A stretch of 52,629 nt of DNA from positions 1 through 52,629 of the forward strand of contig ONLH01000024.1 in assembly GCA_900318645.1 (NCBI GenBank). Direction: 5' to 3'. This stretch comes from an uncultured Prevotellaceae bacterium. Its GTDB lineage: Bacteria; Bacteroidota; Bacteroidia; Bacteroidales; Muribaculaceae. Below, one piece after another: positions 7,060 through 41,763 of the stretch. The notes beneath the pieces were generated by a model. That model made no database searches and was not told the DNA's origin. It saw only the letters and a program-made list of their open reading frames with translations. The translations under genes were made by a program, and so were the position numbers. Numbering within the stretch: the first letter of the stretch is position 1; each line of letters opens with the position of its first letter.

Positions 7060-7094
7060 CCCTTTAAACTCTAAACATTAAACTCTATACTTAC
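7060..7094 (+). repeat. Array of five degenerate heptamers before the AI-2E permease start
   Basis: Five consecutive 7-bp units, best described as AACTCTA with variants (units at 7060, 7067, 7074, 7081, 7088; two are exactly AACTCTA). The array ends at the base before the ATG at 7095. The same AACTYTA word recurs at 28660-28694. Confidence 0.75.
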
Positions 7095-8288
7095 ATGCCA
7101 CAGACAGTACAGAAGAAATATGACTTTGACCGCGTGGTCAGGATGGTGTTGACCGTCCTCACTATCGCTGTTGGCGTGTGGCTCGTCAACTACCTGAGCC
7201 CAGTGCTGATGCCTTTTGTCGTTGGCTTTATTCTAGCCTATATCATTGAGCCACTGGTGGAGTGGCTGCAACGCAAGATGCGCATCAAGACACGCGGCAT
7301 TGCTGTCGTGCTCGCCCTGATTATCGTCATTGCAGTGATTACGGGTTTGTGCTGGCTCGTTATCCCTTACCTGATTGACGAGTTCGGCGCGATGTCCAAG
7401 CAACTTGCCGCCTATGCCAAATCCTCACTTAGGATTCCGTATGTCCCCTCCGAAATCAACGAGTTCATCCAGCGCTACATTGATTTAGAGAAGCTCAATG
7501 AGCTCTTCTCCAAACAACAGTGGATGGATATTATCAATAAGGCAGCATCGGGTGCATGGTCGGTAGTTGGCGGAACGATGAGCGTTATCTTCAGCATCGT
7601 GTCGTGGTTTATCGTGCTGTTGTACATGTTCTTCATTCTGCTGGATTTCAACAAGTTGTCACGCGCCTTCAAGGCTGCTATTCCTGCACGCTATCGCCGC
7701 ATGGCACTGCGCATCTTCGGTGACGTTGCCGACACCATGAGCCGCTACTTCCGCGGTCAGGCGGCAGTATCCTTCTTTGTGGGCGTAATCTTTGCCATCG
7801 AGTTCTACATCATCGGTCTGCCGATGGCGATTGCCTTCGGTCTGTTTGTCGGGTTGCTGAACATGGTTCCCTATCTCCAGCTCATCTCCATCCCCATTGC
7901 CGCCTTCCTGTGCCTAGTGGCTACAGCGGCTACGGGCGGCAGTTTCTGGGTGATGTTCGGCTGGGTCATCCTGGCTTACATCATCTGTCAAGTCATCCAG
8001 GATATGGTGCTCATCCCCACCATCATGAAGAACCAGATGGGCCTGAACCCTGCCATCATCTTCCTGTCATTGTCGTTGTGGGTCTATGTGATGGGCTTTA
8101 TCGGACTGATTATCGGTCTGCCGTTGACGACGCTCATCATCAGCTACTACTGCGAGTTTGTGCTCCATCAGCCCAATCCGCTGAACAAGAGTAAGAAAAA
8201 AGAGGTCCAAGACAAGAATGCTCCGCTGGCGCTGACTTCATCCTTCATCAGCAAGTATCACAACGAGAACCATCAGGATAAACACTAA
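7095..8288 (+). CDS. AI-2E family transporter (PerM/YdiK type)
   Basis: A 397-residue inner-membrane protein with about eight hydrophobic segments: a pair near 18-60, one near 70-95, a soluble region (about 95-150) rich in amphipathic helix, then segments near 155-185, 215-250, 255-285, 290-315 and 320-355. The signatures PFVVGFILAYIIEPLV, the LLNMVPYLG-like motif (LLNMVPYLQ) and VQGxxL-like region (VIQDMVLIPTIM) fit the AI-2E/UPF0118 family. Members have been linked to autoinducer-2 export or Na+/H+ exchange, but substrates are mostly unproven. The C-terminus is polar (KKKEVQDKN). Likely in one transcription unit with xth and miaA. Confidence 0.9.
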   Translation: MPQTVQKKYDFDRVVRMVLTVLTIAVGVWLVNYLSPVLMPFVVGFILAYIIEPLVEWLQRKMRIKTRGIAVVLALIIVIAVITGLCWLVIPYLIDEFGAMSKQLAAYAKSSLRIPYVPSEINEFIQRYIDLEKLNELFSKQQWMDIINKAASGAWSVVGGTMSVIFSIVSWFIVLLYMFFILLDFNKLSRAFKAAIPARYRRMALRIFGDVADTMSRYFRGQAAVSFFVGVIFAIEFYIIGLPMAIAFGLFVGLLNMVPYLQLISIPIAAFLCLVATAATGGSFWVMFGWVILAYIICQVIQDMVLIPTIMKNQMGLNPAIIFLSLSLWVYVMGFIGLIIGLPLTTLIISYYCEFVLHQPNPLNKSKKKEVQDKNAPLALTSSFISKYHNENHQDKH

Positions 8289-8314
8289 ATCAAGCGACAG
8301 TTTTTCAACCTCAA

Positions 8315-8349
8315 ATAGCTAATGGCCATAAGCCAAGAGCTAATAGCTA
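8315..8349 (+). repeat. Array of five degenerate heptamers before miaA
   Basis: Five 7-bp units with consensus NNRGCYA (starts 8315, 8322, 8329, 8336, 8343; first and last are ATAGCTA), ending three bases before the miaA ATG at 8353. Same length and position as the array before the AI-2E gene but a different word. Confidence 0.75.
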
Positions 8350-8352
8350 AAC

Positions 8353-9246
8353 ATGGACAAGACGTTGATTGTCATCACGGGCCCTACGGGCGTGGGCAAG
8401 ACGGCTGCAGCCATCCAATTGGCGCAGCAGCTCCACTGTGACATCATCAACGCCGACTCCCGCCAAATCTACCGTGGTATCCCCATCTGCACCGCAGCCC
8501 CAACCCCCGAAGAACTCGCGGCGGTGCCTCATCACTTTGTGGCATTCAAGGACTTGGATGAGAATTATAGCGCAGCACAGTTCGAGAGCGATGTCATGAC
8601 CTTGCTTCCCACGCTGTGGCAACAGGGTGACTATGCTGTACTGTGTGGCGGCTCGATGCTCTATGTGGACGCCGTGTGCCGAGGCATTGACCAGTTACCA
8701 GACATTTCGCCCGAGGTGCGCTCGGCAGTCAAGGAGAAACTGGCCAACGAGGGACTGGAGAGCCTCATGAAGGAATTGGAGCAGTTAGATCCGCAGTATG
8801 CCGCGACAATTGACCCCAAGAACACCAGCCGCGTGTGCCACGGTGTGGAAATCTGCCGCCAGGCGGGTGTACCCTACTCCACCCTGCGCACCGGCACCAC
8901 CAAGCAGCGTGGTTTCCGCATCATCAAGTTGGCGCTCAATATTGAGCGCGAGCAACTGTTTGCCCGCATCAACCAGCGCGTGGACCGCATGGTTGAGATG
9001 GGACTGGAGCAGGAGGCCCGCTCGGTCTATCACCTGCGTCACCTCAACTCGTTGAATACCGTAGGCATGAAGGAGATGTTCGCCATCTTTGACGGCACGA
9101 TGGACCGCCACACGGCCATCGAACGGATGAAGAAAAACACCCGCGTGTATGCCAAGAAACAACTCACCTGGTACCGCCGTGACCCCGACATCACCTGGGT
9201 CACCCCCGACGCCGCCGTCACCACAGCCCTTCACATGCTAAAATGA
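8353..9246 (+). CDS. miaA: tRNA dimethylallyltransferase
   Basis: A 297-residue protein of normal MiaA length. It has the P-loop GPTGVGKT (10-17), INADSRQIYRG (substrate-binding Asp/Ser), the CGGSMLYVDAV motif (catalytic region), DPKNTSRVCHGVEI (in place of the usual R..RALE) and the C-terminal KK.TR.YAKKQLTW.RRD motif. The enzyme adds dimethylallyl to A37 of tRNAs that read UNN codons. The usual VGYKE motif reads VGMKEM here. It is last in the plus-strand run; a palindromic element follows two bases after the stop and separates it from the convergent C10 peptidase gene. Confidence 0.95.
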   Translation: MDKTLIVITGPTGVGKTAAAIQLAQQLHCDIINADSRQIYRGIPICTAAPTPEELAAVPHHFVAFKDLDENYSAAQFESDVMTLLPTLWQQGDYAVLCGGSMLYVDAVCRGIDQLPDISPEVRSAVKEKLANEGLESLMKELEQLDPQYAATIDPKNTSRVCHGVEICRQAGVPYSTLRTGTTKQRGFRIIKLALNIEREQLFARINQRVDRMVEMGLEQEARSVYHLRHLNSLNTVGMKEMFAIFDGTMDRHTAIERMKKNTRVYAKKQLTWYRRDPDITWVTPDAAVTTALHMLK

Positions 9247-9248
9247 CT

Positions 9249-9278
9249 AGTAGAGACACAAAATTTTGCGTCTCTACT
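9249..9278. repeat. 30-bp dispersed palindrome, copy 1 (possible bidirectional terminator)
   Basis: AGTAGAGAC and GTCTCTACT arms (9 bp each) enclose CAAAATTTTG, itself palindromic; only one position pair (9258/9269) mismatches. It lies between convergent genes. Related copies are at 24011-24041 and 24068-24094. Confidence 0.8.
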
Positions 9279-9320
9279 GGCATCATGGGTGCTCATTCAC
9301 CTATGCTCAAATTTTACACT

Positions 9321-11885: not shown

Positions 11886-11931
11886 TTTGTTTAAATTTTA
11901 AATAATTAGGTAACTATATCGTAAAACTTTG

Positions 11932-11962
11932 CAAATATAATACTTTTTTAAGAATTTGCAAC
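11932..11962 (-). promoter_or_regulatory. Promoter of the first C10 peptidase gene
   Basis: TATATTTG (11932-11939) with GTTG (11959-11962) 19 bp upstream on the minus strand. The start codon is 46 bases downstream of the -7 element. Confidence 0.65.
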
Positions 11963-12006
11963 ACTTTAAAAGCAAAACTATCGCTTTCGGTCAGCGCTGA
12001 GACTGA

Positions 12007-12045: not shown

Positions 12046-12066
12046 GTTATCAAGATGTCCTATTGG

Positions 12067-24208: not shown

Positions 24209-26779
24209 TTATTTGAGAATGATATCAATAATTGCATTGATGTCGGCAATGTTGATCTCACCATCACGATTCACATCGGCAAGTGGAGTAGATGTCATCG
24301 GACCACTAAGGATAATGTCAATGACCGTATTGATGTCGGCAATATTGACCTCGCCGTCAGTATTGACATCACCGGCGACGACCTCATGATAGACGAACGA
24401 ACGGATGTCACAGTAATCGGTGTACTGTACCGTCGTGCCAGTGGCCAACATGCGGTAAGCATAGCGGGCACGGATGTAGTAAGTCTTGCCATCGGTGAGT
24501 TTTCCAGTGCCCTTGATAGTTCCCAATTGAGGGGTCTCAAACGTGCCTTCGAGCGTGCCGTTGTAAGACGTACGAGTGGGGAACGATTCCGAACTGCTGA
24601 TTTGCACTCTCAATGACCCGGCACCCTCAACGGGTTCAAAGCTCACCACATCGGTACTGTACAGCACTGTATCAGCCTCACTGGGAACGACATATACGGG
24701 CACGGGAGGGATGACCTCAAGGGTAGTAAACGACGATACAGGGGTCACTACCGTGGAACTGCCATAGGTAGCCGTCACACGGGCATAATAGGTTGTGGCT
24801 CCTGCCAGCCTGTATTTGGGAACCTGCCATTGCGCCTCGGCCAAGCAGATGGTGTCGGGATTGTTCATCGTCGCTAGGGTGGACAGTTCAAGCACATAGG
24901 AAGTGCCTGGCGCTCCCGATGTCCATGTGATGACAGGCGTCAAGGAGACGGACGTGGCAGTTGCGGCAGGGGAAGTAATGCGCATCTGCCCCAAGGTGAA
25001 TTGCCGTAGGTCGCTGGCATTGTCCCACTGGTTGAGGCCGCGTGCTACCACTCGCCACCAGTAGGAACCGGCTTTAAGACCCGGAACCTTGGTAAGGGGG
25101 CAATTCAACGAGTCCACCTCGACCTGTGCCACAAGCGTCTCCATCTGCTCATCGGCAAAGACCTGCACCACATAGTTGATGCCGTCACCATCCCATTGCA
25201 GGGACGAGAGTTCCGATACTTCAGCACCATCCTCGGGATAAAGAAGAATGGGTTTGCTCGCTTGGCTCGGCACAACGCCAGGCATCACCGGAGCATATTC
25301 ATTCTCCCAGCGGTCAAGAATGGTCACAGCATAGCGGTAACCCTCTCGTTTGTTTTTCGGCATCGTGTATGAGGCCCAGTAACTCACGCCATCGATATAC
25401 TGCTGTTGGCAATGGAAGTCCTTATCCTCCACACCCTCGGGGATGGCATAGACAACATAGCGCACATTGGGGATGCTGTCCCATGAGAGCATGCCGTCGC
25501 TATAGGTAAGATTGGTCACCGTCTGATAGGTCTGCTCCGGTCTGAGCCAAGCGGGAGCGGGGTTCAAAGCTACAGATGAATAGAGGCTGTCCTTGAGCCA
25601 TGTGCGCAACTGGCGCACCTTGCCGTCGATAACCTCCTTCTTGTTACGCCACGTGCCGTAGCGAAAATAGACCATACCAGGATTGCCGCCTGCTGCCATC
25701 GCTTCACGCATGACATGTCCCTGCTTGACAAACTCGGCCAAGGTCCAACCTTCTTCATCGGGAATCCACTGGCTGATGAAGATGTGGCGGTTAAAGCGCG
25801 CTGCCATCTTGCCCCACCATGTAGTGACACCGGTAAATGTGCCTGTCGTTTTCCAATAGACCTGCGGGGCTAGGAAATCGATGGTGCCTCGGGTCACCCA
25901 TGCCATCGGGTCACTATAAATCTGGTTATACTGCCAGTCGCTGCCCACGGGGCAAGGCTCCACACCGTATTTGTCGGCTACAGCCTGAGAGGTGCACGCC
26001 ACACCGGCAGGACCGATGCCGAAGCGCACCCACGGCTTGGTCGCCTTGACCATGTCGTTGACGTCCTTGACCATCTGGTTGACATTCTCGCGCCGCCAGT
26101 CGCCCTGCGACATGGTGCCGCCAGCGGCCTTGTAGTCACTATAGAGGTCGGCATCGAGCGAGAACGACGGGTTGTCCTGATTGTAGAAATAATCGTCAAA
26201 CACCAGACCGTCAACATCATACTTGTCCAAGATGTCCTTGCACACGTCCACCACACGCTGGCGAACTTCAGGGATACCTGGATTGAGCACGGTTTCATAA
26301 CTTGTGGTCAAGAGCCACTCGGGATGGGTGTGGATGTAGTCCAATTCACTCTGTCCCCACATGTTGTCACCATGGCCATAGCGATAAGGGTTGACCCAAG
26401 CATAGACCTCGATGCCCCGCTTGTGGGCTTCGTCAATCAGGTAGCCGAAGGGGTCAAACGCAGGTGCTACGCCACGCGTTCCCGAGACGTAGCTGGACCA
26501 CGGCTCGTAAGCCGAGTTATACATAGCGTCGCACATCGCCCTAACGTGGTAGTAAATCGCGTTGATGTGGTTCACACGCAGCGTGTCGAGCATCTTGCGG
26601 CAGGCATTCTGCATGATGGGCGTGTTGCTTGGCGTGATGGCTCCGCTGGGCCAGTCGTTCAGGTATGACGTAATCCACATGCCTCGCTGCTCACGCTTGG
26701 GCGGGACATCGGCAGCCGAAATCGCAAAACTGGCGACAAATGCCACCAGTAATGCTATCAGAATTAATCTACGTTTCAT
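24209..26779 (-). CDS. Secreted GHL10-family glycoside hydrolase-like protein with dockerin-like C-terminus
   Basis: An 856-residue exported protein: signal peptide (1-22), a GHL10/DUF187 domain (about 30-350) with RGMWITSYLNDWPSG, NAIYYHVRAMCDAMY, KRGIEVYAWVNPYRYG, DGLVFDDYFY and FGIGPAG, then two or more fibronectin/Ig-like beta modules (about 420-790) and two dockerin-like repeats (about 800-856). GHL10 proteins are TIM barrels thought to cut polysaccharides or peptidoglycan-related glycans; activity of most is undefined. Its start lies 90 bases after the PKD lipoprotein gene and the gap is filled by an inverted heptamer array, so it may be the last gene of the SusCD-type operon, linking the dockerin cluster to it. 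Confidence 0.88.
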   Translation of the reverse strand: MKRRLILIALLVAFVASFAISAADVPPKREQRGMWITSYLNDWPSGAITPSNTPIMQNACRKMLDTLRVNHINAIYYHVRAMCDAMYNSAYEPWSSYVSGTRGVAPAFDPFGYLIDEAHKRGIEVYAWVNPYRYGHGDNMWGQSELDYIHTHPEWLLTTSYETVLNPGIPEVRQRVVDVCKDILDKYDVDGLVFDDYFYNQDNPSFSLDADLYSDYKAAGGTMSQGDWRRENVNQMVKDVNDMVKATKPWVRFGIGPAGVACTSQAVADKYGVEPCPVGSDWQYNQIYSDPMAWVTRGTIDFLAPQVYWKTTGTFTGVTTWWGKMAARFNRHIFISQWIPDEEGWTLAEFVKQGHVMREAMAAGGNPGMVYFRYGTWRNKKEVIDGKVRQLRTWLKDSLYSSVALNPAPAWLRPEQTYQTVTNLTYSDGMLSWDSIPNVRYVVYAIPEGVEDKDFHCQQQYIDGVSYWASYTMPKNKREGYRYAVTILDRWENEYAPVMPGVVPSQASKPILLYPEDGAEVSELSSLQWDGDGINYVVQVFADEQMETLVAQVEVDSLNCPLTKVPGLKAGSYWWRVVARGLNQWDNASDLRQFTLGQMRITSPAATATSVSLTPVITWTSGAPGTSYVLELSTLATMNNPDTICLAEAQWQVPKYRLAGATTYYARVTATYGSSTVVTPVSSFTTLEVIPPVPVYVVPSEADTVLYSTDVVSFEPVEGAGSLRVQISSSESFPTRTSYNGTLEGTFETPQLGTIKGTGKLTDGKTYYIRARYAYRMLATGTTVQYTDYCDIRSFVYHEVVAGDVNTDGEVNIADINTVIDIILSGPMTSTPLADVNRDGEINIADINAIIDIILK

Positions 26780-26787
26780 CGGTTTTT

Positions 26788-26860
26788 AGTTTTCAATTGG
26801 CAGTTTTCAGTTGGCAGTTGGCGGATGCCGCTGAAAACTGTCAACTGAAAACTACCAACT
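26788..26860 (-). repeat. Paired inverted heptamer arrays between PKD lipoprotein and GHL10 genes
   Basis: Five direct units of AGTTNNC (26788-26822, for example AGTTTTC and AGTTGGC) and an inverted set (26826-26860, for example GAAAACT) are separated by 3 bp, so the 73-bp element folds into a long hairpin with few mismatches. It sits eight bases before the GHL10 start codon. Confidence 0.85.
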
Positions 26861-26868
26861 ATTATTGA

Positions 26869-28599
26869 CTAAAACAGGTTCGTCAGGCGCGGGTTGATGC
26901 ACACGCCCAGGATTCTGTCCTTGTTGCCGTTGAAGTTATAGACCTTGCCATCATCAGGATTGAAGTAATACAGTCCCGTGGTATAGGTCTTCTCGGTCGT
27001 CGCAGCACGGAAGCCGAAATAGACGTAGTGGGTCTGGGCATCCACGGCAAACTGCGTGGTGTAAACGCCCTCGGCATCGGTCGTGTTGATAGGATCAGCC
27101 TCCATGGTGATGAAGTTGATGTACTTGTCGTAGGTCACCGTGGCATTCTCGGCGGGGATGGCATACTGGGTAAAGCCCACGCCAGGCGTGGTGCCCTTGG
27201 TCATCCAAACATACAGGTAGCCGAGGTCCTCATCAAGGGTGAATGCGCGCGGCTGCGTTGTCTCGAGCACGATGGGATGCGGGATGGGAACACCAGTACC
27301 AGTCTTGCCGATATCACTCGGGCGGAAACGGTAGATACCGTTACCCGAATAATTCTTGCCCCACCAGAACATGCCTGTTTTGTCAAGATAAAGTCCCGTG
27401 TGGATTGCACCGTAGGCAATACCCTGGCCATAGTAACTCAACTGGTTGTTGACCACATAGTAACCAGCGGTGCTGTTGAAGTTGGTCTGCTCGGTCTCGC
27501 CACGTGCCGTGAGCGGCATGGTACGGATACCCGTGTTGCGGTCGGTGTAGTAGAGGGTCGTGCCATCGGTGCAGCCCTGGAAGGGATCGTTGAAGGCAGG
27601 ACCGCCCACATTGGTGACCATGACGTTGGTCGTCAAACCGTCGGCGCTCATGACGGTGATTTTGCCATCGCCCAAGTTACCAGCCTCGTCGTTGATGTAA
27701 TAGTACTGCTTGCCGCAGTCCAGGATATAGACGTTGTCCTGCTCAATGACATCAGTCTCGGTCACCGTCTTCTCGGTGGCAAATACCAGCGTAGTGGGCA
27801 TGTTGCCCGAGCTCACGCCCATGTCAAACGGCAGATTCTTGGTGCCAGCGGGCAACTTGGAGAGGTCCACCAGCTTCACGGCCATGATATTACCGCCCTG
27901 AGTGGCGTAATACAGTGTGGGCGCGGGAATTGACGAGCCCACCTGCACGTTGACGTAGCTGTCCTCCAGACGACGGTTCTCGCCGTTGATGTCAAACCAC
28001 GTCTGCAGTGTAATCTTCTGCGAACCGATGTTGCTGAAGGTCAGTTTGCCGGGGTTGTCAGTAGTACCATCCTCGTGGCTGTAGCCCTCGAAAGTCGTAA
28101 TCAGGTTGCCCTGAGCGTCACGGGTACCGTCGGGGAAGGTCCACACATACTTGCAGGTCAGATTCTCGGGGTTGGGCAACTCTATGTCAAGTTTCACTTC
28201 AACATCATTGATGACCACGGGCGAAGCACTCTGCTCAACAACGCTCAACAACGGGGCGATATCGTAAATGAGCAGCGGATAGGTGCGACTCCCCACGCCG
28301 TCAACGGTCAGCGTCACTTGATAGATGCCAGCCTTGGCATATTTGTGGGAAGGATTCATGTCGGTCGAGCTCGTGCCGTCACCGAAATCCCACTTCACCT
28401 GTCCCGACTTGGACGAGGTGTTGGTAAACTCCACAGTCGATACCACATAGAAGTCCAGACCGTAGCGATCATCGTCCACCCTATAGGTGAAATCCACATC
28501 CTTGGTGGCAAAATTGTCATAATCGGGTGTCTTATCGATACACGACACGGCCATCATCGCCATCATGAAAATGAATGCTATTTTATTGAATGTCTTCAT
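26869..28599 (-). CDS. PKD-like domain lipoprotein of a SusCD-type locus
   Basis: A 576-residue lipoprotein: signal peptide ending in AVSC with lipid-bearing Cys20, then a PKD domain (about 45-110) containing VKWDFGDGTSSTDMNPSHKY..G.Y.VTLTV, a second PKD-like segment (about 120-220) with YVWTFPDGT, and a C-terminal region of repeating beta segments (about 240-570). It is the fourth gene of an operon with SusC and SusD, where such lipoproteins usually sit on the outer cell surface and help bind the glycan or protein substrate (family knowledge). Separated from the upstream lipoprotein gene by two heptamer arrays. Substrate unknown. Confidence 0.88.
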   Translation of the reverse strand: MKTFNKIAFIFMMAMMAVSCIDKTPDYDNFATKDVDFTYRVDDDRYGLDFYVVSTVEFTNTSSKSGQVKWDFGDGTSSTDMNPSHKYAKAGIYQVTLTVDGVGSRTYPLLIYDIAPLLSVVEQSASPVVINDVEVKLDIELPNPENLTCKYVWTFPDGTRDAQGNLITTFEGYSHEDGTTDNPGKLTFSNIGSQKITLQTWFDINGENRRLEDSYVNVQVGSSIPAPTLYYATQGGNIMAVKLVDLSKLPAGTKNLPFDMGVSSGNMPTTLVFATEKTVTETDVIEQDNVYILDCGKQYYYINDEAGNLGDGKITVMSADGLTTNVMVTNVGGPAFNDPFQGCTDGTTLYYTDRNTGIRTMPLTARGETEQTNFNSTAGYYVVNNQLSYYGQGIAYGAIHTGLYLDKTGMFWWGKNYSGNGIYRFRPSDIGKTGTGVPIPHPIVLETTQPRAFTLDEDLGYLYVWMTKGTTPGVGFTQYAIPAENATVTYDKYINFITMEADPINTTDAEGVYTTQFAVDAQTHYVYFGFRAATTEKTYTTGLYYFNPDDGKVYNFNGNKDRILGVCINPRLTNLF

Positions 28600-28609
28600 C
28601 TTATTAAAG

Positions 28610-28694
28610 TTTTTAGTCCTTAGTCCTTAGTTTTAGCCTTTAGTTTGCTGGCGGGAGCCAACTCTAAACTCTAAACTTTAAACTCTAAACTTTA
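28610..28694 (-). repeat. Two heptamer arrays between the lipoprotein genes
   Basis: Array A (28660-28694) has five units AACTYTA on the plus strand and ends exactly on the stop codon of the upstream gene. Array B (28610-28643) has five units ending in TTAG (one is 6 bp). The arrays are partly complementary across a 16-bp GC-rich spacer that itself forms GTTGGC/GCCAGC pairing, so a hairpin is possible. Confidence 0.8.
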
Positions 28695-29738
28695 GTTCAA
28701 CGTTACTTCTTTGTTATCGGTCGTCACGCCCACCTTACCGTCAGTGTCATACACTCGGTATTGGGGCTCCAGGAAGTAGGTGCGGCTGAAGTTCACCGTA
28801 TAGACCTTGTCGGCCGTGTTATAAATCCACGACGTGAAGGGAATGGTCTCAATCAGGCTCTTGAAATAGGGCATGTACTGGCGACGCACCGTGGTGATCT
28901 TGCCACCCGTGTCATCGCTATAACGCGAGAAGAGCCAGAAGGCCGATTTATAAACCGGCTGCACATTGGCACCTGCCGGGGCAGTGCTCTCGTCGGCGAT
29001 CTCATGATAGACCGCCGTACCGTCCTCGGCAACCGTGATGTAGTAGTAATGATCCACTTCATCGGTGGTGTACCATGCATTGGATTTGTCGTCGGTAGTC
29101 GTGTCGGTCGGGAAATCGATGTTGTACTGGGCATTGAGCTGCTCAAACAGTTCAATAGGGAAGTTGTACTTGATATAGACGTTGCGCAGATCGTTGTAGT
29201 AGGTACTGTCCTTGGTCAACGCGTTGACCATGTAGGCCATGAACTCGTCCTGGAACGTCGAGGGATAATAACTGTCAAACTTCTCCTGGTCCCACTCCTC
29301 AGGATTGACCCAGGTCACGGGGGCCAGAGTGCGTGAGGTGGGGAAACTGTCGGTCAGCACATACTCATAACCGTCCCACTCCGCCTTGCTGTGGGGATAG
29401 GTGGCTACCATCTGGCTGGAGCGCACCGTATCGGTCAAGGAGTAGTTCTTGGTGTAAGCCAGCGACGTGGTCAACTTGCTGGTCGCCGTGGCGGTCTGCT
29501 CACGCTTGATGAGGCACCACACCTCGCTGTGGTCAATCGCTTTCTCGCTAGTGGTGTAGTACTTACCCTTGAAGGTGGCATAGCGGCCCGCCTTGACCAC
29601 AGTAGAACCTTGCTCCCAGTCCACTGTGGGCAACACCTGACCGAGCTGGCCGTTGTCGGCAAACGGGTCATGTATCGCACACGAGGTCATGAGCAGCGCT
29701 ACCAGAGCCATCAGGCCATATAATTTATATCGTTTCAT
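28692..29738 (-). CDS. Lipoprotein of a SusCD-type locus, unknown family
   Basis: The start at ATG 29736-29738 gives 348 residues and a signal peptide (MKRYKLYGLMALVALLMTSC) with lipid-bearing Cys20; four upstream codons start with TTG and are discarded. I recognise no named domain: the body is rich in Tyr, Thr and Asp and mostly beta in character. Position third after SusC and SusD, and a lipobox with an acidic +2/+3 region (CAIHDPFAD), point to an outer-surface lipoprotein that binds substrate together with SusD. The heptamer array 29749-29783 fills the gap to susD. Not a SusE/F sequence by eye. Confidence 0.82.
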   Translation of the reverse strand: MKRYKLYGLMALVALLMTSCAIHDPFADNGQLGQVLPTVDWEQGSTVVKAGRYATFKGKYYTTSEKAIDHSEVWCLIKREQTATATSKLTTSLAYTKNYSLTDTVRSSQMVATYPHSKAEWDGYEYVLTDSFPTSRTLAPVTWVNPEEWDQEKFDSYYPSTFQDEFMAYMVNALTKDSTYYNDLRNVYIKYNFPIELFEQLNAQYNIDFPTDTTTDDKSNAWYTTDEVDHYYYITVAEDGTAVYHEIADESTAPAGANVQPVYKSAFWLFSRYSDDTGGKITTVRRQYMPYFKSLIETIPFTSWIYNTADKVYTVNFSRTYFLEPQYRVYDTDGKVGVTTDNKEVTLN

Positions 29739-29748
29739 AATTGTTGTC

Positions 29749-29783
29749 AACTATTAACTATTATCTATTAACTATTCACTACT
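29749..29783 (-). repeat. Array of five heptamers between susD and the lipoprotein gene
   Basis: Units on the plus strand at 29749, 29756, 29763, 29770 and 29777: AACTATT three times, ATCTATT once, last unit degenerate. The array includes the susD stop codon and ends 10 bases before the lipoprotein ATG. Confidence 0.8.
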
Positions 29784-31692
29784 CTTGAGTCAACGAGGTG
29801 ACTTCACCATACTCGTGAGCCCAGATCATGGGTTCCTGCAACCACCTGTAGTTCTTGTAGGCACCCAGGCGCTCAAGTTCCTGGCGGTTGTACTTCTCCT
29901 CGGTCTCGGGGTCGTAGTTGATGCGCTGGATCCAGGTGTTCTCCTTCTGCTCCTCGGTCAAGCCGTCAATCCAGTAGGCTGAATAGAGGTTGTAAGGACG
30001 GCGCAGGGTCGGATAAACGATTTCCTGATTGTCGCCGATGCCGTAGTGGTTGCGGTTGTTACTGTAGTGGTAACGGCGCATGTCGGTCCACTGCTCGGGC
30101 TGCAGATACATGGCAATGTACTTCTGCTGCATCAGGTCGCTCAATGAGAACTCACTGGGATTGAAGAACCAGTGCTTGTTACCTCGGTCGGTCACCTTGT
30201 GAACGGCGACATTCTTGCCTTTGTAATAGTCCTCATTATCCAGGAAAGCGGCAATCTGTCCATCCCAGTACTCAGCAGGCTGGTAACCCGGGGCTCCGCC
30301 CGATACTGAGTTACCAGGGTACTTGTTATCGGTGGTCGCGTTGTAGTTGGGATTGACGTAGTACTTGAAGAAGGCGGCGAGGTGGCGCTGGATGTTCCAC
30401 TGTGTGGCTTCCTTAGCCAATGCACAGGCCTCGGTCTTCTTGCCCATCCAATACATGGCCTCGGCCTTGATGAAGTAGAGTTCCTCCATCGTGAAGATTG
30501 GATTATAGGCATTGGCGGCGCCAGCATAGGCACCCATGTACAGGTTGGGATAGTTGGCAATCTTGTAGGATGTTCCCATGCCGATGTTGTTCTCCAGGTA
30601 GCGCATTTTGATACGCTCATTGGCCACCGACGGACTTGCGGGACCTGTTCGGGCAATCATCAGCAGTCCGCAACGCGGGTCATTGGCAAAACCGTCGTGG
30701 GCACCCTCGGCATTGAACATGCCGCAAGTCATCTCATTGTCGGGTTTGCTGATACCCAGCAGATCGACCATGAAGAATTTGCTCGGGATAGCGCTACCCA
30801 AGAGGTTACCACGCGACTCCCACGAGTTGATGACGGGTTGGGCTACGCTCCACACGGCGTTCTGCGTACCCGTGCCACCGTCCCAGTAGTAACGCGGCTC
30901 ATTGCCAAACCATGCATCACGGCCACCCTGGTAGTCAAACACATCACCCTTGCGCCACTGGTTGATGGCTGCATCAGCAGCATCAATAATCTTCTGGCAC
31001 ATGGCCGGTGAGCGGTCCACGTTGGGGATGTTGCGTAACAGCAGACGAGCCTTGATGGCATATACAAGACCTTTCCATTTCTCAAGGTCACCACCATAGA
31101 CACGGTCCACCGAAGCGTCTATCTTCTGGTTGTCAGGGTTATTGATAATCGCGGGGTCCTCATACATCTTGATGAGGTCATCGCACTCCTGCATCATCCA
31201 CGCATAGACCGAAGCCTGGGTGTCATAGGTCGGCGCGATGCTCTTGTAAGCCTCGCTGCGGGGAATGTCACCGAAGGCGTCGGTTGTCAACTGGGTGGAC
31301 ATCAGCATAATCGTGCGCCCGATAAGCTCATAGTTGGGCGAATTGATTGCCTGTGAGTTTTTCACCAGGTTATCGGTATTCTTACCAATGTCATAGAAAT
31401 GACGGCGCCACATCGGGTGGCGGTTCATCGTCAACATCTCCCACTCGCACTTGTAGCTGTAGGCACCCACCGAACTCTTACCGCCGGTGGTGAGCATCTG
31501 GGAGAAGTAGGCGTAATATTCGCTGTGGTCATAGACCACCTGCTGAGCATAATAGATAATGACAGCCAAGCCATCCTTGGCCTCAATGTTATGGGCCCTG
31601 TCAGGGTTGATGTTATCGTCGAGGATATCATTGCAACCCACCGACAGCAGGCCAACCAGCATCAATAATGCTAAAAATTTAATCTTTTTCAT
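29779..31692 (-). CDS. SusD/RagB-family nutrient-binding lipoprotein (SusD-like type 2)
   Basis: A 637-residue lipoprotein: signal peptide with lipid-bearing Cys20 (GLLSVGC), then a SusD-like fold, of the second SusD-like group: the N-terminal NDILDDNINPDRAHNI, YFSQM, the TPR-like helical core including TTDAFGDIPRSEA and WKGLVYAIKARLLL, and a late FIKAEAMYW (YFIKAEAMYWMGK) repeat with RRYHYS and R.LYPT-like (YPTLRRPYN) ending. SusD proteins cap the SusC beta-barrel from outside and capture ligands before TonB-dependent import. It starts 17 bases after susC, as in typical SusCD pairs. Ligand not predictable. Confidence 0.93.
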   Translation of the reverse strand: MKKIKFLALLMLVGLLSVGCNDILDDNINPDRAHNIEAKDGLAVIIYYAQQVVYDHSEYYAYFSQMLTTGGKSSVGAYSYKCEWEMLTMNRHPMWRRHFYDIGKNTDNLVKNSQAINSPNYELIGRTIMLMSTQLTTDAFGDIPRSEAYKSIAPTYDTQASVYAWMMQECDDLIKMYEDPAIINNPDNQKIDASVDRVYGGDLEKWKGLVYAIKARLLLRNIPNVDRSPAMCQKIIDAADAAINQWRKGDVFDYQGGRDAWFGNEPRYYWDGGTGTQNAVWSVAQPVINSWESRGNLLGSAIPSKFFMVDLLGISKPDNEMTCGMFNAEGAHDGFANDPRCGLLMIARTGPASPSVANERIKMRYLENNIGMGTSYKIANYPNLYMGAYAGAANAYNPIFTMEELYFIKAEAMYWMGKKTEACALAKEATQWNIQRHLAAFFKYYVNPNYNATTDNKYPGNSVSGGAPGYQPAEYWDGQIAAFLDNEDYYKGKNVAVHKVTDRGNKHWFFNPSEFSLSDLMQQKYIAMYLQPEQWTDMRRYHYSNNRNHYGIGDNQEIVYPTLRRPYNLYSAYWIDGLTEEQKENTWIQRINYDPETEEKYNRQELERLGAYKNYRWLQEPMIWAHEYGEVTSLTQE

Positions 31693-36919: not shown

Positions 36920-36996
36920 GCACACGTCATGGGACTAGAATAGCCAAGACTATTATATCATCCGTTGGCATCACAATGATGTGGCATCACTAGATC

Positions 36997-37034
36997 AAAT
37001 AAGAGAGCCTGGATTTCTCCAAGCTCTCTTATTT
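36997..37034 (-). terminator. Hairpin terminator of the GH20 gene
   Basis: AAATAAGAGAGC and GCTCTCTTATTT (12 bp) with additional GGA/TCC pairing inside. It starts 18 bases after the GH20 stop and could act in both directions. Confidence 0.75.
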
Positions 37035-37052
37035 AGTTTTTCCACTTCGGCG

Positions 37053-39530
37053 TTACTTGAACAGGTATGTCGTCACACTCTCGTGGCCCAGGTAGAAGGC
37101 TTTGGCCTTGATGACCTGGGGCTGAGTTTTGATGGAGACGGGGGCCGTCCAGCGGGGTGAGGCGATGGTGGGCTCGCTGCCGTCGAGGGTGTAAGTCACC
37201 AGCTCGTCAGGATACTGGGTATTGATGAGCAGTTTGCCGTCTTCGAACTTGATGCCCGGAGGTCCCACACGGAAGTTGAAGCCCATGTTCTTCAACAGCG
37301 GCAACTCACGGGTACCGATCTTGAGGTTATACTGGTGACGAGCCTCATTATAGGCCTTGAGGTCGGTCAAATCCTTGCTCCACTCGGGAATAGCGGTCCA
37401 AGCACGCTCGCTCACACCCATCATCTTGGGCAGTAACAAATACTGCACCTCATCAAATGAGCGCAGGGTCTCGCCCCACAACTGAGCCTGCACACCGATG
37501 ACATTCTCGGGCTTCTCCAGTTTTGCTTTACCATCACCTGCGGTGGTGATGTTGATGGGGGTGCCATCCACATTGGTGCGGGCAGTGGCGTAGATGTTGG
37601 CAGGCAATGCACTCCAAGCGTCAAATTCATCTACCTTGCCACCCCAGTGCAGTCCCTGCTCATTCTGATGCCAGCTGTAAGCCATATCCATATAGAAGTT
37701 GGTCACGTTGGACAGGATGACAGGATAGCCGTCATTAGCCAAACGGTAGGGCACATCGGCTCGTGAGCCCACGGTACTCCAAGCATTCACGCCAGCGACA
37801 CGGGGAGCCACCACAGCGTTAAATTCAGGCTTGTGATCCAGCGCCACTTCCTGCCAACCCTCGATTTTAATATTACGGAGGGCAAGCAATTCACTGATGC
37901 GCTTGACGTAGTACTCGCTCACCTCATGCTGGCTCGACAGGTGTTCACGCTGCATGAGTGCCTGCACATCGGGGCTCTTGGACCAGGCGTTGTTGGGCAC
38001 CTCGTCGCCGCCCAAGTGGACGATTTCGAGTTTGAGGCCAGCCTCCTTGTACATCAACTGCAGTTCACCAACTACACGGTCAATGAAGCGGTAAACGTCG
38101 TCACTGGCGACATTGAGCACATTGTCATGGTAGCTCTGGGCCGAGGTATAGACACTCTCGTTCTTCTCGTCCCACAAGCGGAACTGCTCGGCCGTGGGAT
38201 TACTCATGGCACGGTTCTTCATGGCCACGATAGCGGCACGGGCATGTCCAGGAGTCTCAATCTCGGGAATGATGCGGATGCCACGATGCCAGGCATAGCG
38301 CAGCAATTCAATAAACTCGGCACGGGTGAGGTAACCATTGGCACACTGCGACAAGTCATCGGGATTGCCGTTGCCGTCAAATATCTGCGCCAAGTAACCC
38401 TTCTCGTCGAGGGTGGCGCCACGACGGGCTGCTACCTGCGTCAGTTCGGGGAAACCGGGAATTTCCAGTCTCCATGCCTCGTCATCGGTGAAATGGAACT
38501 GGATGACATTAAACTTATAGTAGGCTAGCAGATCAATGAAACGCTTCATTTTATCGGCATTGACCACATAGTTGCGGGCGATATCGAGCATCACACCACG
38601 GTAGCCAAAGTCGGGCCAGTCAATGACGAAGCAATTCTGCAGGCGGTGGCCCTTGCTATGGTCCAACGCGGCAATCAAGGTCTTCACACCGTTCATCAAG
38701 GCAGCTTGGGTCCTGCCCAGGATAGTGATTTTACCATTATGTACGCGCAGGCTGTAATACTCACGGTTGTCGCTCAATTTCTTGTCTAACAACAGTTGAA
38801 TTACAGTACCCTGGCCACTGGTATTATAGATACCGCGCTTCTTCAACTCATTGGTCAGCAGATTTTTGGCACGGCGATAACCACCCCACTGGAAGAATTT
38901 ACCGGTCTTGATGGTGACGATGCTGCCCACCTGGGTAAAACCTTCCTCAATATCGACCTGCTTGGGAGCGGGGAAGATGTCATAGTCGTTGCCCGTATAA
39001 CCATCGCCGAAGCCGTTGATGGCCTCGTTGTAGCTGTACATGTAGTTACCGTCAGGGTAATCCTTGTGGTCACGCCACTGGCCAGGTTTGTCAAGCGGAG
39101 CACAGTTAATATTCACAGCAATGGGATGAGCCATATCTCCACCCATCACCACGTGACCTCCTGCAGGCACATAGTTCTTGTTGACCAACGCGCCGCCCAT
39201 CACCAGGTCAACTACCAGCGAGTCGCCAGCAGCGAGAGCCTTGTAATTGGCATTAGGCTTGACACGGTAATAGGTTGTAGAAATTTCTTCTACATCTACC
39301 GGACATCCAGCGGGCAAAACCACCGAGCGCGAGAACTGGTTAAAAAAGAACTGCCAGTCACTGCCCAAGGTCTGCTTGGAGACGTTCTTGATAACAAAGC
39401 GGGAACTGTAATTGCCAGCCGCCGTGTTGTTTTGACCCATCTGCCAATCCACGGCAATCGGGGACTGGGCGCTCAACGTCATGGCACCCAACATGCTCAA
39501 TAGTAGCGTTATTAACTTGATTCTCTTCAT
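37053..39530 (-). CDS. Beta-N-acetylhexosaminidase, GH20
   Basis: An 825-residue exported enzyme: signal peptide (1-21), a chitobiase-type N-terminal beta domain (about 25-150; AVDWQMGQNNTAAGNY), a GH20b-like domain (about 180-295), the catalytic GH20 barrel (about 305-680) with GYRGVMLDIARN, QFHFTDDEAWRLEI, PEIETPGHA, the catalytic Asp-Glu pair 509-510 in HLGGDE, and a C-terminal module with TLDGSEPT (about 740-825). It removes terminal GlcNAc or GalNAc from host glycans or chitin fragments. Its start codon overlaps the stop of the phosphatase gene in ATGA, so it is translated from the same message. Confidence 0.95.
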   Translation of the reverse strand: MKRIKLITLLLSMLGAMTLSAQSPIAVDWQMGQNNTAAGNYSSRFVIKNVSKQTLGSDWQFFFNQFSRSVVLPAGCPVDVEEISTTYYRVKPNANYKALAAGDSLVVDLVMGGALVNKNYVPAGGHVVMGGDMAHPIAVNINCAPLDKPGQWRDHKDYPDGNYMYSYNEAINGFGDGYTGNDYDIFPAPKQVDIEEGFTQVGSIVTIKTGKFFQWGGYRRAKNLLTNELKKRGIYNTSGQGTVIQLLLDKKLSDNREYYSLRVHNGKITILGRTQAALMNGVKTLIAALDHSKGHRLQNCFVIDWPDFGYRGVMLDIARNYVVNADKMKRFIDLLAYYKFNVIQFHFTDDEAWRLEIPGFPELTQVAARRGATLDEKGYLAQIFDGNGNPDDLSQCANGYLTRAEFIELLRYAWHRGIRIIPEIETPGHARAAIVAMKNRAMSNPTAEQFRLWDEKNESVYTSAQSYHDNVLNVASDDVYRFIDRVVGELQLMYKEAGLKLEIVHLGGDEVPNNAWSKSPDVQALMQREHLSSQHEVSEYYVKRISELLALRNIKIEGWQEVALDHKPEFNAVVAPRVAGVNAWSTVGSRADVPYRLANDGYPVILSNVTNFYMDMAYSWHQNEQGLHWGGKVDEFDAWSALPANIYATARTNVDGTPINITTAGDGKAKLEKPENVIGVQAQLWGETLRSFDEVQYLLLPKMMGVSERAWTAIPEWSKDLTDLKAYNEARHQYNLKIGTRELPLLKNMGFNFRVGPPGIKFEDGKLLINTQYPDELVTYTLDGSEPTIASPRWTAPVSIKTQPQVIKAKAFYLGHESVTTYLFK

Positions 39531-40027
39531 TTTACTATATTGTTTTGTTCTATTATTCTGTCAAGCAAGTTGTCGCAGGCATCCTCCAGCAGGTCGAGCA
39601 CCAACTCAAAACCCTCGCTGCCCTCATAGTAGGGATCGGGCACATGGTCATAGTTAGGATACTGACGGATGTAGTCGCCCATCATCACCACCTTGTCTTG
39701 TTGCTCCAGAGTCATGGCCAGGTTGCACAAGTCATCAACATTGGAGGCATCCATGCCAACAATCAGGTCAAAGTCCTCAAAATCACTTGACTGCACTTTG
39801 CGGGCACGATGGGTCAATTCATAACCACGAGGTCGGGCATGAACACGCATTCGCTTGTCGGGCAGGTCACCGATGTGCCAACCACCAATACCTGCCGAGT
39901 CAATGTAGAAGCGGTCTGTCAAGCCCCGCTCATCCACCATCGCTTGCATCACCGCCTGGGCCGCCGGAGACCGGCAAATGTTGCCCAGACAGATGAAAAG
40001 CACGTTATATTTTCCTGTCTTACTCAT
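39527..40027 (-). CDS. Low-molecular-weight protein tyrosine phosphatase
   Basis: A 166-residue protein of normal family length. The P-loop CLGNICRS (Cys13 nucleophile, Arg19) is followed by SP..Q, and the general-acid loop DPYYEG lies near residue 128; the N-terminus VLFICLGN is typical. Cytoplasmic enzymes of this family remove phosphate from phosphotyrosine and, in polysaccharide loci, control Wzc-type kinases; here no kinase or exopolysaccharide gene is nearby. It shares a message with the GH20 gene by an ATGA overlap, an unusual pairing. A -7 element (40058-40065) precedes it. Confidence 0.93.
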   Translation of the reverse strand: MSKTGKYNVLFICLGNICRSPAAQAVMQAMVDERGLTDRFYIDSAGIGGWHIGDLPDKRMRVHARPRGYELTHRARKVQSSDFEDFDLIVGMDASNVDDLCNLAMTLEQQDKVVMMGDYIRQYPNYDHVPDPYYEGSEGFELVLDLLEDACDNLLDRIIEQNNIVK

Positions 40028-40057
40028 TTTGAAGGTGCAATATTACAAAAAAAGTAG

Positions 40058-40065
40058 CAAATTTA
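40058..40065 (-). promoter_or_regulatory. -7 element of the phosphatase-GH20 operon
   Basis: TAAATTTG on the minus strand, 31 bases before the start codon at 40027; no clear -33 element. Confidence 0.5.
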
Positions 40066-40100
40066 ATGCTTGAGAAGAAGGATTTTTCATTATTAATGTG

Positions 40101-40108
40101 TATCTTTG
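40101..40108 (+). promoter_or_regulatory. -7 element of the DUF5715-HAD operon
   Basis: TATCTTTG on the plus strand, 36 bases before the ATG at 40144; divergent from the phosphatase promoter. Confidence 0.55.
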
Positions 40109-40143
40109 CTTGCTGAAACAAGAAAAGACTATTCATAGTATAG

Positions 40144-40902
40144 ATGAACCTGAACATCTTACGCCTGCTGCCACTGCTGTTGCTGATGGGACTTGCCCTA
40201 GCAAGTGCCACATCCTGCGGCCGCTGCAGCAGGGGAGAGCAACAAGATACCACGGCATGGGACTACAAGGCACCACCAGCCATGCCAATCAACCGCAGCA
40301 TCACTGGCGACAGCATGGGACTCATCTCCGATGCTGATATTCATCGTCTACCCACTTACATCGAGCAACGTCCCCTCAAGGAAATCTTCAACGACAGCAA
40401 CGCGCTGCAACTTGTCGCCGCCGAACAGAACGGCTTCAAGCCCGTTACCAGCCTGCGCGATGCCTATCATATCGACCGACCGTTGATCAGGATTTTCTCC
40501 TGTGATGCCTATATGCTTGATGACCTGAGTGCATCGGTGCCCTATCTGGTACCTAAAGCGGCACAACTGCTTAAGGAAATCGGCTATGCCTTCCAGGACA
40601 GTGTCAAGAAACGCGGGGGCAAGGCCTACCGCATCAAGGTGACCAGTGTGACCCGCACCGACTACAGCGTGTCCAAACTCATGCGCCGCAACCGTTCAGC
40701 AACCGAAAACTCCTGCCACCGCTATGGCACCACGGTAGATATCAGTTGGGTAAAGTTTGACTGTCTGGACCCAAGCATGGTGGTCTCGCTTGAGGACTTG
40801 AAGAATATCCTCGCCGAGGTCGTGCAGGATTTCCGTAAGCGAGGCCTTTGCTATGCTATCTTTGAACGCAAGTCAGGATGCCTGCACATCACCGTTAGAT
40901 AG
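40144..40902 (+). CDS. DUF5715 family lipoprotein
   Basis: A 252-residue protein with a hydrophobic signal (about 5-22) and a lipobox-like ATSC with Cys25. The C-terminal half carries RIKVTSVTRTDYSVSKLMRRNRSATENSCHRYGTTVDISW, characteristic of DUF5715, a family whose conserved His/Asp pattern (H-x-x-G-x-x-x-D) recalls M15-type murein D-Ala-D-Ala peptidases. A peptidoglycan-directed role on the periplasmic side is inference. The gene starts a plus-strand pair with the HAD phosphatase, 38 bases apart. Confidence 0.85.
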   Translation: MNLNILRLLPLLLLMGLALASATSCGRCSRGEQQDTTAWDYKAPPAMPINRSITGDSMGLISDADIHRLPTYIEQRPLKEIFNDSNALQLVAAEQNGFKPVTSLRDAYHIDRPLIRIFSCDAYMLDDLSASVPYLVPKAAQLLKEIGYAFQDSVKKRGGKAYRIKVTSVTRTDYSVSKLMRRNRSATENSCHRYGTTVDISWVKFDCLDPSMVVSLEDLKNILAEVVQDFRKRGLCYAIFERKSGCLHITVR

Positions 40903-40940
40903 AAAACATTAAGATCACATTTTATATAAATTCCAAACCA

Positions 40941-41681
40941 ATGACCTTACAACAGACGATAGCCGAGCACCTGAAATATACAGGGCAAAAAGGCTTAGAC
41001 ATCAGCGCTGCACTCATTGACTGTGACGGCGTACTCTATGATTCAATGAAGTACCACACCCAAGCATGGGTGAAACTCATGAAGAAGAACGGCATCAAGT
41101 GTACACGCGACGAGTTCTACGAGATGGAAGGAATGACCGGCAGCGAAATCATCAAGATGAAATTCAAGACCGGAGCCGGCAAGAACATCACCGACGACGA
41201 GGCACATGCCCTGTATGGCGTGAAGACCCGTTACTTCCGTGAACTGGGTGAGGCTCCCGTGATGCCCGGTGCCGTGCGCGTGCTCGAAGCGCTCAAGGAT
41301 GCAGACGTGCAACGTGTGCTGGTGACCGGCTCTCAGCAGGACACCTTGCTGGAACGCATTGAGAAGGATTTCCCAGGACTCTTCGGCGAAGTGAAGGTAA
41401 CAGGACATGACGTGCGCAAGGGTAAACCCAACCCCGAACCCTTCCTCAAAGCCATGGCTAAGGCTGAGAAGAAACCCAACCAGTGCCTCGTCATCGAGAA
41501 TGCTCCCCTCGGCGTCCAGGCAGCCCATGCCGCAGGCTGTTTCACCATCGGCGTGACCACGGGCCCCATCCCCGAGAAAGACCTCTACAAGGCTGGTGCC
41601 GACCTTGTCTATAAGAACATGGACGAGTTGGCTGCTGCACTGCCCTCGCTGCTTGTAGCATTGTCGCTCGTCAAAGCTTAA
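40941..41681 (+). CDS. HAD-superfamily phosphatase, beta-phosphoglucomutase-like
   Basis: A 246-residue cytoplasmic protein. HAD motifs in order: LIDCDGVLYDS (nucleophile Asp and acid Asp), VTGS (motif II), the Lys in RKGKPNPEPF (motif III), and LVIENAPLGVQAAHAAG (motif IV; the usual second Asp position reads Asn). The alpha-helical cap (about 40-110) fits class C1, as in beta-phosphoglucomutase and sugar-phosphate phosphatases. It likely dephosphorylates a sugar phosphate; the substrate is not predictable. Motif IV with ENAP recurs in some family members, so it need not be inactive. Followed by a large hairpin, then aroB. Confidence 0.9.
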   Translation: MTLQQTIAEHLKYTGQKGLDISAALIDCDGVLYDSMKYHTQAWVKLMKKNGIKCTRDEFYEMEGMTGSEIIKMKFKTGAGKNITDDEAHALYGVKTRYFRELGEAPVMPGAVRVLEALKDADVQRVLVTGSQQDTLLERIEKDFPGLFGEVKVTGHDVRKGKPNPEPFLKAMAKAEKKPNQCLVIENAPLGVQAAHAAGCFTIGVTTGPIPEKDLYKAGADLVYKNMDELAAALPSLLVALSLVKA

Positions 41682-41686
41682 ATATA

Positions 41687-41763
41687 AACTACGAATTGAT
41701 AAACTACGAATTATACAAATCAGCAGCCTCTTTCTTGATTTGTGTAATTCGTAGTTTTTTTTG
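41687..41763 (+). terminator. Large terminator-like hairpin made of heptamer words, abutting aroB
   Basis: About five 7-bp words (AACTACG, AATTGAT, AACTACG, AATTATA, CAAATCA, one extra base) are followed by an inverted set at 41736-41756 (TGATTTG, TGTAATT, CGTAGTT) and eight Ts. The 21-bp stem plus T-run fits a terminator; the T-run ends four bases before the aroB ATG at 41767. Confidence 0.85.

Follow-up and report, generated by a model that had tools for sequence, protein, structure and literature searches.

The DNA studied here is contig ONLH01000024.1 from an uncultured Prevotellaceae bacterium (contig C53 of the 75-contig, 3.60-Mb metagenome assembly GCA_900318645.1), and its whole length of 52,629 nucleotides is referred to as the window. 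Several spacers between its genes hold tandem arrays of degenerate seven-base units, and these heptamer arrays are our subject. A first-pass annotation had listed seven such arrays, describing them as about five units long, constant in length and position, and each built on a word specific to its locus. We call arrays beside a start codon start arms and those at a stop codon stop arms; AC-type arms carry CTAA or AACT in the gene direction, and GU-type arms carry TTAG or AGTT. Sites were scored by identity at lag 7 (match +1, mismatch -1.6), with 300 dinucleotide shuffles of 30 window spacers as the null, and the following features were found.

7060 to 7094, + strand: weak AACTCTA-type array, an AC-type start arm ending at the ATG of an AI-2E transporter gene (7095-8288).
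8315 to 8349, + strand: weak AGCTAAT-like array, 3 bp 5' of the ATG of a miaA-like gene (8353-9246).
26788 to 26822, - strand: AC-type start arm with AACTGCC and AACTGAA alternating as a 14-bp repeat, upstream of a glycosyl hydrolase-like/dockerin gene (24209-26779, - strand).
26821 to 26831, - strand: hairpin tip GCGGCATCCGC, an exact match, at the centre of a two-arm element.
26831 to 26860, - strand: GU-type stop arm of AGTTTTC/AGTTGAC, the inverted partner of the 26788 arm (from the sequence and Tandem Repeats Finder, TRF).
28610 to 28643, - strand: AC-type start arm of CTAAGGA, upstream of a PKD gene (26869-28599, - strand); score 12.0, reached in 0/300 shuffles.
28660 to 28694, - strand: GU-type stop arm, sense TAAAGTTTAGAGTTTA..., that extends over the stop codon of the gene at 28692-29738 (- strand); score 20.2, 0/300 shuffles.
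29749 to 29783, - strand: sense GTTAATA-type array filling a 40-bp spacer; score 18.6, 0/300 shuffles.
41687 to 41722, + strand: a 15-bp unit in two copies, then the unit inverted and a T tract (by inspection), a terminator-like hairpin with no 7-bp periodicity.

The arrays at 28610, 28660 and 29749 thus exceeded all shuffles, and the one at 26788 is rare by chance (period-7 score 10.6, expectation 0.007), scoring still higher at period 14 (15.4) as a two-word repeat. Its partner at 26831-26860 is flanked by the tip on one side and by the PKD gene's stop codon on the other. The 29749 array overlaps the stop codon of a SusD-like gene (29779-31692, - strand) and leaves 10 bp to the ATG of the 28692-29738 gene. 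The arrays at 7060 (score 7.4, chance expectation 0.34 per window) and 8315 (8.6, expectation 0.10; the miaA-like gene beside it has a Pfam IPPT match) are individually within chance. The 7060 array is present in the nearest relative found (L029), shorter by one unit. The listed site at 41687 holds a 15-bp repeat in place of heptamers; the repeat, AACTACGAATT... with its inverted copy and T tract, extends over 41684-41763 between HAD hydrolase and 3-dehydroquinate synthase genes. An Rfam scan of the window gave 0 matches above the gathering score. The strong window arrays all lie in spacers of a polysaccharide-utilisation-like cluster at 24209-31692 (dockerin glycosyl hydrolase-like, PKD and SusD-like genes).

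To the 837 kb first sampled from this genome, window included, a further 400 kb was added as a replication set, giving 1.24 Mb or 34% of the genome. Genes were called by our own script as the longest ATG-initiated open reading frames (ORFs) of at least 80-100 aa; a start arm that had an ATG in frame and lacked a stop would thereby be scored as coding, a bias that is small as only 7/130 arrays were mostly coding. A word-free periodicity scan detected 86 and 37 intergenic period-7 arrays in the two sets, 123 altogether, along with 3 and 4 lying mostly inside predicted ORFs, and dinucleotide shuffles of the same DNA yielded none in one run and one in another. At the same threshold no period-7 array was found in 400 kb of G065 (a genome of the same genus, 98% complete) or in 50 kb of E. 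coli K-12. Periods of 5, 6, 8, 10 and 11 gave 0-11 arrays each per sample, coding sequence included; periods 14 and 21 are harmonics of 7, and period 9, TCTAGANNN among its members, forms a second and smaller class. The tandem pattern AACTNNN x4 matched 133+94 times genome-wide and its backward version 0 times. The period-7 arrays are hence real and not a product of chance, and the shared architecture proposed in the first pass is borne out, being equally frequent neither in shuffled nor in coding DNA. The constancy claimed for it is another matter. Array length ranges from 18 to 79 bp (83 arrays; median 34, middle half 30-40), and gene ends are favoured only modestly over what uniform placement would give, with 45/68 arrays of codirectional spacers within 15 bp of a gene end where about 37 would be expected.

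Nor are the words specific to their loci. Among the 130 arrays, CTAACTC occurs in 28, CTAAACT and CTAACTT in 24 each, and CTGAAAA and CTGACAA in 23 each, whereas in the column-permuted control the commonest word reaches at most 8/130. The 130 arrays are covered by 38 dominant words, and in 94 of them the dominant word is also that of two or more other arrays. We rely on word frequency here, since the more striking count of 126/130 arrays holding a heptamer found in at least three arrays is weakened by a permuted mean of 86 (73-99). Most words are YTRA followed by NNN (CTAANNN, CTGANNN), and YTRA stands in phase in 93/130 arrays against a permuted mean of 23.4 (highest of 50 runs 34). TAACTGA, written CTGATAA in this phase, is found in four of the 130. 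As judged by eye, the lexicon differs between species.

The arrays have a strict polarity, which is absent from the first-pass annotation. It was followed in this genome, in its nearest relative found (G061) and in loci of close relatives with 85-95% identity in the AI-2E gene, for which membership of the same genus is not established. The nearest named relatives by this gene are rumen/gut metagenome genomes such as those deposited as Prevotellaceae RUG362 (95% identity) and Muribaculaceae RGIG2290 (89%). In the first own sample and the relatives, 56/90 intergenic arrays were near exactly one gene end. On the sense strand the start-adjacent arrays carried AACT in 18/25 cases and AGTT in 0/25, and the stop-adjacent ones (n=31) carried TTAG in 22, AGTT in 14, AACT in 2 and CTAA in 1. 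In codirectional spacers of the first sample, GU-type arrays lay in the first half by 39:2 and AC-type arrays in the second half by 29:5; the corresponding ratios were 16:3 and 15:1 in the replication set and 11:1 and 16:0 in the nearest relative. Where a spacer has two arms, the order was GU then AC in all 31 cases (17 own, 8 replication, 6 nearest relative).

The same rule can be expressed as an excess of C over G when an array is read from the spacer into its nearest gene. This held for 59:7 arrays in the first sample and 26:4 in the replication set (own total 85:11), 28:5 in the nearest relative and 37:8 in the relatives (69 loci). Convergent spacers alone gave 6:2 in the first own sample and 5:1 in both G061 and the relatives. 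Array-free flanking DNA at stop ends was without C/G skew. Distant Bacteroidota, scanned by periodicity alone, showed the excess by 13:1 in G297 and 12:3 in G419, two genomes picked once pattern searches had turned up matches there; the remaining two yielded two arrays in G285 (one near a gene, 1:0) and none in G191. It should be noted that a ratio of 8:1 obtained for other Bacteroidota is biased, the loci having been found with a CTAA-type pattern. Codirectional spacers are also richer in arrays than divergent ones, with 1.30 against 0.29 per kb in the first sample, 1.11 against 0.09 in the replication set and 0.93 against 0.20 in a third sample. Stretches L204-L209 of G419 carry dense, long arrays with words such as GGATGAC, GGATGTT and GTGAGAC; the 120 kb hold 15 arrays between genes and 4 that are mostly coding.

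A number of arrays are accompanied by the hairpin seen at 26821. We searched for the 8-base core of GCGGCATCCGC-like hairpins, allowing at most one mismatch, within 22 bp of arrays and of random intergenic points. It was detected beside 43/123 arrays against 117/3660 random points in this genome, 6/34 against 23/1140 in G061, and 12/29 against 61/2280 in the close relatives (38 loci). A second palindrome, GCTCGC..GCTCGC, stands beside 16/123 arrays and 15/3660 random points. Per 10 kb of intergenic DNA there are 3.5 exact tip cores in this genome, against 0 between genes in the 400-kb sample of G065. Across 101 genomes of the genus, tip counts correlated with array counts (Spearman 0.53, P=1.5e-8; backward 11-mer control -0.10), bearing in mind that the species are not independent. 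The array measure was the sum of forward and backward YTRA pattern counts, by which the 12 species poorest in arrays have 0-5 matches; the reversed pattern also matches the AGTT/AATC phases of the same arrays and hence cannot serve as a null. Across the phylum, exact matches to the tip 11-mer looked by eye like chance plus GC content, and we therefore ascribe the tip to this genus. These results support dispersal together with a linked tip for part of the copies.

Other repeats were observed between genes as well. Three large ones (L104 6271-6836, L111 16286-16526 and L118 9478-9931) contain several modules of a dispersed kind, namely the TGCTCGC..GCTCGCA palindrome, an AGTTTAGAG-type array and an GGCATCCGC-type tip. 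A palindromic intergenic repeat of the GAGACGCAAAATTTTGCGTCTC kind also occurs in this genome, for example at L015 14153-14519, and GAGACGCAA ranks with the most frequent intergenic 9-mers (45 intergenic, 17 coding). G065, a single 3.34-Mb contig, has the 11-base tip twice in its whole genome.

Comparison of orthologous spacers shows how the arrays change. Against G061 (L029; anchors about 91% identical), the 367 kb covered allowed 96 of 529 spacers to be paired; 13 pairs had arrays in both genomes, 4 in one only (1 own, 3 relative) and 79 in neither. Arrays common to both mostly keep their word family, while unit number and NNN positions change. One orthologous spacer has 3+3 units in one genome and 11+16 in the other flanking an unchanged centre, and in another (L015 5501) the words changed in both arms together. 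Lengths change by whole units between orthologous spacers of these species, which fits slippage. In 39 loci of close relatives, 17/158 orthologous spacer-species pairs carried arrays (score at least 9) and 141 did not, and array-bearing spacers were 64 bp longer at the median than array-free ones (17 against 103 pairs, P=1.5e-7). The added length and the many pairs without arrays indicate that the arrays are extra DNA which most relatives lack at the same site; that they are added DNA growing by whole units is well supported. The arrays are moreover dispensable, as the same-genus G065 has none in 400 kb and 141/158 orthologous pairs are without them. The YTRA x4 tandem pattern matched in 95/101 genomes of the genus, with 0-728 matches each and a median of 109, and in 238/296 genomes sampled across the phylum, where small counts can be due to chance.

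The arrays further bear the mark of translation. Within the 1.24 Mb sampled here, each of the three sense frames contained a stop codon in 25/34 start arms (antisense 9, column-permuted 14.5) and 57/68 stop arms (permuted 39.8). Start codons were scarce, with 0.03 per 7 nt in start arms against 0.13 after permutation and 0.20 against 0.65 in stop arms. Nineteen of 68 stop ends reach at least 4 nt into the coding sequence and none of 34 start ends does, five of the latter touching the start by 0-3 nt. The corresponding three-frame stops in G061 were 13/15 in start arms and 17/18 in stop arms (permuted 7.4 and 9.0; antisense 10 and 16), and in the relatives 15/21 and 22/25 (permuted 9.4 and 14.6). 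Array-free spacers had such stops in 46/239 cases at starts and 38/239 at stops, against 37 and 26 when shuffled. A translational filter in this genome and its near kin is thus supported. According to PMC6847099, Bacteroidetes initiate translation without Shine-Dalgarno pairing, with adenines favoured and an extra AUG avoided close to the start; a start-free, stop-rich and A-rich leader would therefore presumably be well tolerated in them. Fail-safe stop codons as a general bacterial rule were considered and set aside: the filter is strong here, but it loses strength in the relatives and is not clearly visible in the distant genomes, and Ho and Hurst (PMC6764699) report no selection for such codons.

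The arrays are a real and widespread heptamer repeat of a known general kind, and part of them probably form the arms of a genus-level mosaic palindrome. We think it slightly more likely than not, going one step further, that the arrays as such are the arms of a non-coding mosaic palindrome that has dispersed through the spacers of a genus of rumen Bacteroidales and is filtered by translation. The full element would read, in gene direction, stop codon, GU-rich arm (TTAG/AGTT), a short centre that is often GCGGCATCCGC, AC-rich arm (CTAA/AACT) and start codon, and many copies have a single arm only. Such elements would have been inserted, or have grown, into otherwise compact spacers. Their arms gain and lose whole seven-base units, as the comparisons indicate, presumably by replication slippage or unequal recombination, and words spreading within a genome would give the species its own lexicon, as it appears by eye. 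Translation would then select the surviving copies, keeping them outside reading frames and tolerating run-in at the stop codon but not at the start codon. Seven not being a multiple of three, the arrays of this genome carry stops in all frames with few start codons, a composition that would suit a lineage initiating without Shine-Dalgarno pairing. Any benefit to the host would be secondary and unproven.

Several observations weigh against this interpretation. Three-frame stops in the stop arms of this genome are nearly as common antisense (52/68) as sense, and in the relatives the antisense counts are 17/21 for start arms and 19/25 for stop arms. Start-codon avoidance in the relatives' start arms is not significant (136/500 permutations as low), and in the AACTGAN dialect the GU arms have, judged by eye, few sense stops. 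The filter was not clearly seen in the distant genomes, three-frame stops being found in 6/14 start arms (permuted 4.6) and 11/16 stop arms (8.3), and start codons at 0.15 against 0.15 and 0.75 against 0.56, respectively. As these genomes keep the polarity without a clear filter, translation is not its general cause. A recognisable tip was not found beside 80/123 own arrays and 28/34 in G061, so that, with about two thirds of the arrays lacking it, the tip and the full set of copies cannot be said to share one descent. No insertion boundary or mobilising enzyme was found, target duplications not having been looked for. Mobilisation by transposases of the REP-associated tyrosine transposase (RAYT/Y1) kind was rejected: Y1_Tnp occurs in 92/101 genomes, but by eye unrelated to array abundance, with 12 in G091 and 8 in G031, both array-poor, and none in G015, G073 and G120, which have 94-151 YTRA matches.

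Among the alternatives, the arms may pair in the operon transcript as functional RNA hairpins, acting as stabiliser, attenuator or cistron boundary, with selection maintaining their complementarity. RNA pairing had been named as a possible role in the first pass, and folding agrees in part: relative to shuffles, two-arm spacers had a mean z of -4.5 with the tip (n=6) and -4.2 without (n=7), and AC-arm spacers -3.5 (n=13), or -5.2 with the tip (n=3). Array-free spacers are themselves structured, however (-2.1, n=45), and GU-only spacers do no better (-1.7, n=14). The joint change of words in both arms at L015 5501 and the preference for codirectional over divergent spacers also suit pairing, but arm complementarity barely exceeded that of swapped arms (P=0.036 and 0.033 in two samples, 0.78 in a third), most orthologous spacer-species pairs (141/158) do without arrays, and pairing alone leaves the arm order unfixed. 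We regard this role as weakly supported and as rather unlikely to be the explanation. Somewhat less probable still is purely local, neutral slippage without dispersal, in which chance duplications beside stop and start codons grow at a seven-base step of the polymerase. The change of unit number between orthologues and the stop arms overlapping the coding end by at least 4 nt (19/68) are in accordance with it, and sharing of words is partly expected (86/130 after column permutation). Heptamers are also the commonest long repeat unit in several bacteria (PMC4679880, PMC4692102). Yet local seeds should yield locus-specific words, whereas a single word is found in 28 arrays where the control gives no more than 8, the lexicon differs between species and a tip is linked to the arrays.

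The conserved YTRA core with tolerated NNN positions, and recurring consensus words such as AACTRAM, could be explained by binding arrays for a sequence-specific protein or RNA, one unit per monomer, regulating translation or marking gene ends; a binding protein was proposed for TAACTGA by MacGregor 2015 (PMC4679880). We find this improbable, as the arrays show no preferred phase relative to the ATG, G065 has none in 400 kb and words vary between species. The best candidate, RRM_1, occurs in 0/101 genomes of the genus (control: 2/14 named genomes, Bacteroides ihuae and Synechococcus elongatus), and RRM-protein binding arrays were accordingly rejected for this genus. The idea of such a protein comes from the co-occurrence in cyanobacteria and Bacteroidetes. 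A ribosome register, related to the spacing role first suspected, was likewise given up: among 84 arms the phase relative to the ATG was clear in 62, and in these it was uniform (P=0.62). A G-quadruplex function, as shown in vitro for GGGAATC/GGGGAYT heptamers, is hardly credible: the polarity rule is the same as in Xanthomonas and Nostoc (PMC4692102), but by inspection the common words AGTTTAGAG, GATTAGTG and AGTTGTC are without a run of two G; GTTAGGA-type words do contain GG. Chance or low complexity as the source of the arrays is practically negligible, for although two of the seven listed arrays are weak and one is no heptamer array, 123 intergenic arrays stand against 0-1 in shuffled DNA and none in the G065 and E. 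coli samples.

Related repeats are known elsewhere. The short tandemly repeated repetitive (STRR) heptamers of cyanobacteria resemble our arrays in being degenerate and located in spacers. Repetitive extragenic palindromes (REP) and bacterial interspersed mosaic elements (BIME) are, like the elements proposed here, dispersed palindromes between co-transcribed genes with mosaic combinations of modules; they differ in that our arms are variable heptamer minisatellites with no visible link to a Y1 transposase. Paludibacter is a Bacteroidales genus. The first-pass statement that such arrays are undescribed in Bacteroidales is then not quite right, as MacGregor 2015 (PMC4679880) has two TAACTGA sets in Paludibacter; beyond that paper we found none on Bacteroidales heptamer arrays by title or start of abstract, in a search mostly without subscription journals. 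That work reports TAACTGA arrays in marine Beggiatoaceae, 15 Cyanobacteria and five Bacteroidetes. These repeats are alike in their AACTGA heptamers, mostly intergenic and mostly forward just before start codons, and in their scattered species distribution. They differ in having one fixed word, related heptamers being rarely repeated, where ours have degenerate YTRANNN words and species lexicons; unlike them, our arrays also have a hairpin tip and, following stop codons, a second arm in inverted orientation, and throughout the genus a genome can hold hundreds of matches.

G-rich heptamers, GGGAATC and GGGGAYT, are described for Xanthomonas and Nostoc in PMC4692102, which reports quadruplexes in vitro and no role found. 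The likeness to our arrays is close in that they are intergenic, with the G-strand coding after the stop and non-coding before the start, some overlap stop codons, divergent spacers are under-represented, and mostly the same gene pairs carry them in two species with variable length. They are quadruplex-forming, however, and by inspection our common words cannot be, so the shared polarity needs another cause.

One such cause might be a dedicated enzyme writing the arrays by templated end extension at breaks, the arrays of Bacteroidota being its scars or substrates and those of Xanthomonas, Nostoc and Beggiatoaceae their analogues. We raise this very unlikely possibility because, in every genome set that could be scored, the G-strand starts at the gene edge and mostly runs 5'-3' into the spacer, with the C-strand leading back into the gene that follows. 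Such a polarity would result if, as at telomeres, templated addition lengthened both 3' ends of a break before they were joined. The words of the two arms are often different, as they would be if each arm had been added independently from its own template, and differing templates would likewise give different lexicons. The best-documented case of growth kept the spacer centre unchanged, which speaks against this, at least later growth having been internal.

Unrelated bacteria with unrelated seven-base words thus appear to follow one gene-edge polarity rule, and as words unable to form quadruplexes obey it, the quadruplex is removed as a general explanation and a common cause is wanted. The range of 0-728 matches per genome, together with the linked tip, makes that cause searchable, for a driver is expected in rich species and should be absent or broken in poor ones, G065 being a natural negative for finding it. 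The arrays matter, too, for the interpretation of gene ends and spacers across much of the rumen flora, and as a little-studied but widespread growing repeat they have an origin and purpose that can now be tested.

The smaller class of period-9 repeats is represented in the window as well. Arrays of TCTAGANNN lie between same-strand genes at 51438-51470 and 52207-52249, each unit consisting of a palindromic six-base core and three variable bases, and the class is present in other stretches and species.

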